Below, piece after piece: positions 14,213 through 63,904 of a stretch of DNA of 64,000 nucleotides. The notes under the pieces were generated by a model. The model ran no database searches, had not been told where the DNA came from, and was given only the letters and a program-made list of their open reading frames with translations. Origin of the DNA: Salinivenus sp. (GTDB lineage Bacteria; Bacteroidota; Rhodothermia; Rhodothermales; Salinibacteraceae); NCBI GenBank assembly GCA_018609755.1, contig JAHENZ010000222.1, positions 22,327 through 86,326 of the forward strand. The letters run 5' to 3'. The first letter of the stretch is position 1; every line of letters starts with the position of its first letter. The position numbers and the translations under genes are program-made.

Positions 14213-14528
14213 AGCGTGTGTGGATCCGACCAGGCAAAGACGAGTGAGGAGCGCAAGTACCGGGGGCCTCCCGGCACCGTACGCCCTCCGAATTCCAAAT
14301 GTGGGAGGGCGCCGTTGGAGACGTTCCGGCGAACCAATGGGAACAGCGCAATCCCGAACCGGCAACGGCCCCTAACTTCTGACAACAATGTAACATACGA
14401 GCGTCCCCGGCCGAAGGTCAACGGCGGCGCGTGGACATTGCGTCAACACCCCGTTCTGCACCTCTCAGAACCGATCCTTCGCAACAATTCATCTAGTGCC
14501 GTGTCAATGCTTATTCTTCCTGCGCCCT

Positions 14529-14693
14529 GCGATCTCAAAATCCAAGGCAGGTCGCTCCGAGCGAGCCAATCTGAGATTGGCATCGAGGAGCCTCCTTGAA
14601 GAGGGCTGCTCCGACTGGAAGATTTCTCGACGTAGGCAATCTCAGATTGCCATGCTCGAAATGACGTGCGCGGATTTTGGATTTTGAGATCGC
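14529..14693. repeat. BIME-like inverted pair of REP-like hairpins bounded by 17-bp perfect inverted repeats
   Basis: GCGATCTCAAAATCCAA (14529-14545) / TTGGATTTTGAGATCGC (14677-14693); internal hairpins CCAATCTGAGATTGG and GGCAATCTCAGATTGCC. Confidence 0.85.
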
Positions 14694-14724
14694 GCACACC
14701 CGCACAATCACAATTGACGCACCA

Positions 14725-16167
14725 CTAGAGCCGAAGGATGTCGTTGAAAATGAGAAAGGCCATGAAGCCGAGGAGGAGAATCATGCCCACCTGCTGGGCC
14801 ACGAGTCGCACCCGCACCGATGGGCGGCGGCGCGTGACGGCCTCGTAGAGCAAGAACATCAACTGGCCACCGTCCAGCGCGGGAATCGGGAGGATGTTCA
14901 TGATGGCAAGAGTCACGGAAAGAATCGCTACGAGGCGCCAAAACATGATAGCGCCTTGCTGGGCAGCCTCGCTCGTAACCTGCGCAATCATGACGGGGCC
15001 GCCCAGGCTCTCCCGGAAACTGTCCCGCCCGGTGATGACGCGCTTGAGCGTAACCACGATGTTGCGCGTGTTTTCCCATACCGACGTGGCGCCGGCCACC
15101 AGGGCTTCTCCGGGTCCGAAGGACACCTTCTTCACCCCAAGCTCGGAGTAGAGCATCTGCAGCGTCGTGGGATTCGATCGGGGTCCCACCACTCCGAGTA
15201 CGTAGCGATCCTCTTCCTCAAGATGCATCGGCGATGCTGTAGCTTCGTACACGAGCCCGTTCTTCGTTTGCCGCACCAGTACAGCGGGCCCGGCCGACGT
15301 GTCCGCAGTGGCGAGCGAGTCGGGCCGCCGCCAGCGAAAGGTCACCGGCTCGCTCCCTGCATCCTGAATGTATTTGCTCATCTCTTGCCAGAAGCGAACG
15401 GTGTCCCCATCGATGGCAATGATGCGGTCGCCGGTCTGAAGCCCGATCGAGTCGGCCGGAGATCCCTTCCGCACGCCCCCGATGAGGGGGGGCTGGTACC
15501 CGAGCCCAAACCCCTGGTTGTTGTTCTGTGCACGGCTCAGCCGCGTGATAATGTTGGCCGGCCCCACGAGACGCTGCTCCTTTCCGTCCCGCCGGACAGT
15601 GAATGTGAGCGAGTCGGCGGCCACGAGCGCGGACGGATTGATCTGATCGAAGCGCTCGAACGCCCGGCCATTCACCTCCAGAATCTTGTCGCCCGTCCGC
15701 AGGCCGATGTCGTGGGCCACCGACGCCTCTTCCACGTAAATCTGCTCCACATTCTGCGTCGGAATATAGGTATCGCCCTGCACCCACTGAATGCCGGAAA
15801 AGATGATGAGGCCGAGGATGACGTTGAACACGACGCCGGCACTGATGACGACGATGCGCTGCCACACCGGCTTCGCCCGAAATTCCCACGGGTCCGGCTC
15901 CTCTTCTACGTGGTCGGTATCGAGACTCTCGTCGATCATGCCGCTGATCTTCACGTATCCGCCCAACGGCGTGGCCCCGACGACGTACTCGGTATCGCCG
16001 TAGTGCCGCCCAAAGATCGTCGGCGGGAAGCCGATCGAGAAGCGCTCCACCCGCATCCCGAAGTACTTGGCCGTCAGGAAGTGGCCAAGCTCGTGAACGA
16101 ACACCAGGATGGTGATCGCCACGAGAAACCACAGGGTGGACGAGAGGATGCTGATCAAGAGATCCAT
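14725..16167 (-). CDS. rseP: RIP metalloprotease RseP (site-2 protease) with PDZ domains
   Basis: ILVFVHELGHFLTAKYFGMRVERFSIGFPP (HExxH), NILPIPALDGG motif. Confidence 0.95.
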   Translation of the reverse strand: MDLLISILSSTLWFLVAITILVFVHELGHFLTAKYFGMRVERFSIGFPPTIFGRHYGDTEYVVGATPLGGYVKISGMIDESLDTDHVEEEPDPWEFRAKPVWQRIVVISAGVVFNVILGLIIFSGIQWVQGDTYIPTQNVEQIYVEEASVAHDIGLRTGDKILEVNGRAFERFDQINPSALVAADSLTFTVRRDGKEQRLVGPANIITRLSRAQNNNQGFGLGYQPPLIGGVRKGSPADSIGLQTGDRIIAIDGDTVRFWQEMSKYIQDAGSEPVTFRWRRPDSLATADTSAGPAVLVRQTKNGLVYEATASPMHLEEEDRYVLGVVGPRSNPTTLQMLYSELGVKKVSFGPGEALVAGATSVWENTRNIVVTLKRVITGRDSFRESLGGPVMIAQVTSEAAQQGAIMFWRLVAILSVTLAIMNILPIPALDGGQLMFLLYEAVTRRRPSVRVRLVAQQVGMILLLGFMAFLIFNDILRL

Positions 16168-50333: not shown

Positions 50334-50742
50334 GGTCAGTCGACGAAAAGCATTGTCGGAGGAGTTGGCGCTTTCCCTTTTTCCGTTGACCGGATAGTCT
50401 GAACCTGGCTTGCAATGGGCAACTCTTCTTTCGGCGTCACTAGAAACGAGCTATGTGAAGGCTCTGAGCCCCCCAATTAAATCCACTTAGTGCTACGAGA
50501 CGACTCTCTAGAGGATTCTTCTCTTGGAAGGAGGATTCCTTTTCAAGCAGAGGGACGCTAGTGCTGCGTCACGTTTTCCGTGTCGGGTTGAGCGTTTGAC
50601 ATCGAATCGTACCTTTGTAGCAGACAACGACCTCCAGACACAGAGTACGATTCGACACTCGACACCCTCAGCTTGACTGAGCACTAGCTTCCAGCCAGAT
50701 TGCCACGTGGTGAGGGGACTTGAAAAATGGCTCCAGAATACG

Positions 50743-62956: not shown

Positions 62957-63904
62957 GCACTGTTTGAAAAAAGACTCGTTGGCGACACCAGGGTTCTGGT
63001 TCACCAACTTGACTCCTTAGGATGGCACGTCGACGTTTCGAACTCACCGACGAGCAATTTGAACAGATCGAGGACCTGTTGCCAGAGGTTGATGGTCGTG
63101 GACGTCCGTACGAGGACCACCAGAAGATCGTCAACGGCCTTTTCTGGATTTTACGCACCGGGGCTCCGTGGCGAGATCTGCCCGACCGATACGGCGAGTG
63201 GCAGACCGTATATGACCGCTTTCGGACGTGGACACAGGACGGCACGCTTGATCGCATCCTCGATCGGCTCCAGCAAGAGCTCGATCTCAGAGATGAGATC
63301 GATTGGGAGCAATTCAACGTGGACGGTACGACGGTTCCGGCCAGCCGCGCCGCCGCGGGTGGGCCGACCGACGATAAAAAGGGGACCGAATCCAGCGAGA
63401 CGAGGAGGTAGAAGAAGCAGGTTCAAGTCCTGCGCTCGGGTATGGGCGGGGAGGGTTCTCTTCGAAAATCCACCTCGTGACCGATGGAAACGGTCTTCCG
63501 CTCGGGGCCGTGATCAGCGGCGGACAGCGCCACGAATCGGCGTTCTTTACTGACGTGATGAACACCGTTCGGGTGCCTCGGCCCACCGGACGGCCAAAAA
63601 CGCGGCCTGAATCGGTGGCTGGAGACAAAGGCTACGATGCCGCCTGGATCCGACAATGGTGCCTACAGCGAAATATCGAATCGGTGATTCCCGCCCGAAA
63701 GAACACGCGAGAGGGGCCGGGGCGTCCACCGACTTGCGACGAGGAAAAATATAGAGATCGCAACGTCGTCGAGCGGTGCGTGGGGCGTTTGAAAGAGTGC
63801 AGACGGATTGCGACCCGCTTTGAGAAGAAGGCCAGCCACTACAAAGCGATGCTCAAGTGGGCCTTCGTGGCCGATTACCTGAGTCGATAATTCTCAAACA
63901 GAGC
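62957..63904 (+). mobile_element. IS5-family insertion sequence (IS427-like frameshifted transposase)
   Basis: TIRs GCACTGTTTGAAAA / rc of TTCTCAAACAGAGC (GCTCTGTTTGAGAA), flanked on both sides by CTAG; encodes an IS5-type transposase in two overlapping frames. Confidence 0.9.
63022..63890 (+). CDS. IS5 family transposase, two ORFs probably joined by -1 frameshift
   Basis: OrfA MARRRFELTDEQFEQIEDLLPEVDGRGRPYEDHQKIVNGLFWILRTGAPWRDLP (63022..63411); OrfB ...SSPALGYGRGGFSSKIHLVTDGNGLPLGAVISGGQRHES...GDKGYDA...VVERCVGRLKECRRIATRFEK (ends 63890); possible slippery AAA AAG at 63376-63381. Confidence 0.88.

Follow-up and report, generated by a model that had tools for sequence, protein, structure and literature searches.

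The intergenic region between rseP and uppS, two genes of the same direction in Salinivenus sp. (assembly GCA_018609755.1), carries a pair of inverted hairpins enclosed in a perfect inverted repeat. What kind of element do these hairpins belong to, and how does it move? Throughout, we refer to the 64,000-nucleotide stretch of contig JAHENZ010000222.1 that was analyzed as the window. The structure proposed in the original prediction is present: an inverted-repeat search recovered two 17-bp arms, GCGATCTCAAAATCCAA at positions 14529-14545 (plus strand) and its counterpart at 14677-14693 (minus strand), enclosing two hairpin units in opposite orientations. This core inverted repeat, which is common to elements with different outer ends, occurs in the window only as this pair, compared to 0.11 matches at ≤3 mismatches in shuffled sequences, and is not expected by chance. 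Pattern searches and comparison of copies placed unit B (GTC-GCTCC-GA ... TC-GA-GGAGC, tag GGTC) at 14551-14591 on the plus strand, exactly as predicted, whereas unit A (CGTC tag, ATTTC-GA ... TC-GA-GAAAT), at 14622-14665 on the minus strand, is 1 base longer. The tip of each unit is an inner palindrome: GCCAATCTGAGATTGGC in unit B (14565-14581, plus strand), where other copies have a 6-nt loop instead, and GGCAATCTGAGATTGCC in unit A (14635-14651, minus strand; repeat search and copy comparison). As single-stranded DNA, the segment 14460-14745 folds far better than its shuffles (z = -5.85 for the plus strand, none of the shuffles of which folds as well, and -4.76 for the minus strand), and the minimum-energy structure consists of a single long hairpin, not two separate ones.

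The element had been predicted to extend from 14529 to 14693. This segment is indeed the core, but the repeated sequence actually reaches from 14497 to 14724, with outer terminal inverted repeats (TIRs) and CTAG flanks that the prediction had missed. The complete element of 228 bp (14497-14724) is bounded by CTAG at 14493-14496 and 14725-14728, and its ends are conserved in other copies. The termini are imperfect inverted repeats, TGCCGTGTCAAT / TGGTGCGTCAAT; a repeat search detected the outer inverted repeat at 14492-14515 / 14706-14729, and the left TIR, TGCCGTGTCAATGCTTATT (14497-14515, plus strand), is 75% complementary to the right end, TGGTGCGTCAATTGTGATT (14706-14724, read on the minus strand). 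Alignment of the locus with that of the sister species G009 revealed an empty site, ...CAACAATTCAT-CTAT-AGCCGAAGGATGTC..., with continuous flanks and a single 4-bp target, against the occupied site, ...CAACAATTCAT-CTAG-[228 bp]-CTAG-AGCCGAAGGATGTC..., in the window. A clean empty site was seen at this one locus only, the intergenic regions of C308 and G009 being too divergent to read. The distance between uppS and rseP is 209-503 bp in all 12 congeners, compared to 564 bp in the genome studied here. The stop codon of rseP (TAG, minus strand) falls within the right CTAG, and the insertion thus left rseP intact.

Identical 4-bp flanks were found at 13 of the 17 copies in the own genome for which both ends were readable (CTAG in 10, CTAC in 2 and CTCT in 1). 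The identical pairs other than CTAG, that is, CTAC/CTAC and CTCT/CTCT, indicate a true target duplication rather than a fixed end of the element. Copies in G009, in G011 and in the Bacteroidetes MAG QS_3_64_15, which is probably the same genome as G011, also have identical 4-bp flanks. As for the exceptions, the copy on C91 lacks a clear duplication, and the flanks on C33 and C8 agree at 3 of 4 bases; the copies in Salinivenus iranica and on C308 have divergent ends and an apparent CTNAG target. Nested insertions are in agreement, as on C47, where this MITE is placed at the CTAG terminus of a different MITE. The TIRs, the 4-bp target duplications and the empty site together amount to the behavior of a DDE-type MITE. 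We therefore conclude, with a probability of roughly 0.87, that the predicted feature is the interior of a 228-bp non-autonomous MITE that inserts at CTAN, mostly CTAG, with a 4-bp duplication. Thus, the predicted hairpins exist, as the internal cargo of a MITE with CTAG as its insertion site.

The MITE is multi-copy, as had been expected of the hairpin units. The 80 alignments to the element in its own genome (5.0 Mb, 328 contigs) correspond to ~35 core places, several of which are fragments at contig ends. Exact patterns for the two unit types yielded 28 and 25 matches in the genome and none in the controls. All 53 fall on places matching the core of the element, and those inspected with their flanks lie between the arms of the core repeat and the outer ends, except where a copy is interrupted by the end of a contig or by an internal rearrangement. 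The genome search proposed in the original prediction (GTC-N5-GA ... TCGA-N5 with pairing arms) gave 26 matches within 554 kb of the genome, whereas the reversed control had none; 25 of the 26 are copies of the MITE. Among 59 relatives, matches were found in 3 of the 12 congeners, and the 47 genomes beyond this genus had none. When 84,980 species were scanned, possibly without the records of the own genome, only S. iranica CB7 and a Bacteroidetes MAG were returned, and a search of a plasmid collection for the element gave no match. The distribution is confined to a part of a single genus, the Salinibacter/Salinivenus group. A search of the available literature found no relevant work on Salinibacter MITEs.

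Copies inspected with their flanks showed the hairpin units arranged as inverted dimers, and 25 cores were compared. The heads are CGTC or TGTC in unit A and mostly GGTC in unit B. The stem of unit A consists of 5 + 2 bp around the GA bulge, starting with A-T and T-A pairs; its ATTTC/GAAAT arms are invariant wherever readable, and are thus uninformative with respect to covariation. The stem of unit B displays compensated variation (C-G/T-A) at pairs 2, 4 and 5, with C-G in 14 and T-A in 9 copies at pair 4, these being counts of sequences, not of independent events. With the GA bulge kept in nearly all copies, the conserved bulge and the compensated stems claimed for the hairpins are both borne out. 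Two kinds of tip occur: a 6-nt loop (GCGNAG, GCAACG and similar) and an added 16-19-nt palindrome, of which there are several self-complementary alleles. Two copies in G009 (L169:1501-1940 and L172) contain a further palindromic insertion at the hairpin tip of unit A (~270 bp in L169), with an apparent TCTGAGA duplication. Because this insertion has ends (ACGSGTTGTGCTA) similar to the ones surrounding a PF01609 transposase gene at G000:C85 (L156), the hairpin tip may be a target of that insertion sequence (IS). In S. iranica (L255 / L170), a ~35-bp insert is located in the loop of unit B, and the MITE ends start with TAC, at a CTNAG-like target.

The same core is found between different outer ends. 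At least 2 sets of ends occur in the own genome: type 1, TGSYGYGTCAA (the window, C71, C33, C162, C110 and C213), and type 2, TGGNCYGTTACA (C47, C62, C154, C169, C121, C240, C263 and C287). A third, TACNYCGTCAA, is present on C308 and in S. iranica, and on C115 one type 2 end is joined to a type 1 half. Segment comparison showed that the outer arms of the C110 copy are of type 1, 83% identical to the window copy, and its core arms are 98% identical, whereas its inner dimer is 93% identical to that of the type 2 copy on C121 and only 69% to that of the window copy. In the C263 copy, the outer arms are 100% identical to C121 and the inner dimer is 99% identical to C47. These mosaics indicate that the hairpin dimer has been exchanged between elements with differing ends, most simply, it appears, by recombination or gene conversion via the shared core repeat. 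The hairpin pair between the core arms travels as cargo of the MITE. Further MITEs combine similar ends and CTAG targets with other interiors. Two very short solo MITEs of ~60 bp lack the core, one flanked by CTAG on both sides (C140:13694, L140) and the other at C225:16448 (L149), and a ~170-bp MITE in G009 (C4:8661, L290) has the same ends and a different interior. The window itself contains a second CTAG-flanked MITE (50558-50687, ~122 bp; TGCTGCGTCACG ... GCTTGACTGAGCA), which belongs to a family represented dozens of times in the genome.

The original prediction read the hairpins as REP sequences, a REPIN or BIME, mobilized by a Y1 RAYT (TnpA-REP) transposase. Several features fit a REP reading: multi-copy inverted pairs with a short tag, the GA bulge, compensated stems and a likeness to tagged REP dimers. 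Furthermore, the genome is not devoid of RAYT-like genes, as the NF047646 profile identified two, on C295 and C119, although they score 53-54 bits where the cut-off is 80. The outcome named in the original prediction as contrary to it, a unique element in a genome lacking RAYT genes, was therefore not seen. Mobilization by RAYT, however, found no support. Neither of these genes is flanked by the hairpins of the MITE, with no GTC hairpin or core repeat in their loci of 3.1-3.5 kb. The PF01797 profile added an IS200/IS605 TnpA with TnpB on C68 (L031), rejected as a partner given that it has no GTC hairpins, and a fragment on C206 with one GTC-hairpin match that includes a mismatch and looks like chance; across all four Y1 loci there was no core repeat and no convincing GTC hairpin. 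The gene on C295 is instead associated with a GTAG...CTAC palindrome, GTAGCGCCGTTGGACTCCAACGGCGCTAC, just downstream, a variant of which lies inside the ORF (L086:1401-1429, 1751-1779); this palindrome occurs 4 times in 554 kb, compared to 0 for a control head. The C119 gene contains an internal REP-like palindrome (L087:1340-1372). Both ORFs stay open across their internal palindromes. Judging from these sequences, the RAYT-like genes seem to go with a GTAG repeat rather than with the MITE hairpins, the heads of which (CGTC/TGTC and GGTC) are not of the GTAG or GTGG type. Moreover, the outer ends are part of what moves, insertion duplicates 4 bp of the target, and the empty site already contradicts movement of the hairpins by RAYT, which we thus consider extremely improbable. 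Little more can be said for a selected RNA element, such as a processing hairpin or an attenuator of the rseP-uppS transcript. The location between two same-direction genes and the folding far beyond that of shuffles would suit such an element, and at this locus the MITE would be transcribed as a strong hairpin, for which a regulatory role is purely hypothetical. However, the element is absent from the rseP-uppS locus in the 12 congeners examined and is present at dozens of unrelated sites; a terminator search at the element found no terminator-like site, and an Rfam search returned a sub-threshold chance match only, with none at the gathering score. An RNA function as the reason for its presence is therefore very unlikely.

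A different question, which leaves the interpretation of the complete element as a MITE untouched, is whether the interior palindromes are related to CGTC-type REPs or are ordinary self-complementary MITE sequence that resembles them by chance. CGTC-tagged REPs have a CGTC, TGTC or CCTC tag, an 8-9-bp stem starting with A-T pairs and a loop of 4-5 (PMC3733652). Unit A has the CGTC/TGTC tag and a tail rich in pyrimidines, and its stem opens with AT; the two units are inverted relative to each other, as dimers that, like those of CGTC REPs, often combine two stem types; and, as among the latter, no flanked transposase gene was found, here at the four Y1 loci examined. The alleles with a short loop (GCGNAG) correspond to the simple REP form, the block is swapped between elements as a module, and a 26-nt match at 96% (E = 0.006) exists in a Sphingobium plasmid, all of which speaks against mere chance. 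On the other hand, the tag of unit B is GGTC, not CGTC, the 2-nt GA bulge is absent from the published features of the CGTC REP family, the tip has either 6 loop nucleotides or an extra 16-19-nt palindrome, the dimers lie within a MITE, and in the own genome the units were never found outside it. A chance likeness is a substantial possibility, though less likely than not. Since the tag and the first A-T pairs of unit A fit, and the GA bulge and the GGTC of unit B do not, we refer to the units as CGTC-REP-like, without assigning them to the CGTC REP superfamily. More tentatively still, CGTC-type dimers, which reportedly have no dedicated transposase, might represent an exchangeable cassette carried by MITEs, where the vehicles would supply DDE transposition and the dimers would pass between vehicles.

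Movement of the MITE family itself is probably due to a DDE transposase acting in trans. In the mechanism that we propose, such an enzyme, encoded elsewhere, would recognize the outer TGSYGYGTCAA or type 2 ends. Candidate autonomous partners in the own genome, namely 7 PF01609 (IS4/IS5-type) matches and 1 PF13546 (DDE_5) match, were rejected, having no matching ends. A scan of ~1.8 Mb from the own genome and that of G009 for pairs of TIRs 0.7-3 kb apart found no autonomous element with these ends, although the assembly of the own genome is fragmented (328 contigs) and may lack collapsed IS copies; the two relevant matches (L228 and L237) were each two separate small MITEs flanking ordinary genes. 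Near the right end of the window, at 63450-63863, there is a DDE_Tnp_1 (PF01609) match flanked by GGCACTGTTTGA / GGCTCTGTTTGA repeats adjoining CTA.

The MITE family with its CGTC-REP-like cargo can be compared to several known systems. As with RUP, Correia/NEMIS, Chunjie, MITEAba12 and other bacterial MITEs (PMC10969869), the elements are shorter than 300 bp, non-coding, dispersed and hairpin-folding, with TIRs and a short target duplication. Unlike in those, a shared core is combined with several unrelated outer-end types, and the interior is a CGTC-REP-like hairpin pair that is exchanged as a block. QMITE2 of Coxiella burnetii is likewise a MITE carrying a REP, but of the GTAG type, which serves as a target for another insertion sequence (PMC10969869). 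REPIN/RAYT systems (PMC3116915, PMC2817692) are likewise built on inverted pairs of tagged imperfect palindromes, the stems of which are compensated, whereas here there is no association with RAYT, and movement is TIR-based with a 4-bp target duplication.

The way in which CGTC-tagged REPs move has been left open, given that these repeats do not flank any transposase gene (Di Nocera et al. 2013, PMC3733652). The CGTC-1 dimers of Halothiobacillus neapolitanus are all located inside 41-bp palindromes (PMC3733652), which, by analogy, is a possible parallel to the MITE-borne dimer. Inverted hairpin pairs with compensated stems are not by themselves evidence of RAYT activity. The occurrence of a CGTC-like dimer within a MITE, complete with TIRs, target duplications and an empty site, implies that dimers in this genus can spread as passengers of MITEs, a route that we offer for a class of REPs the spread of which has been unexplained (PMC3733652).
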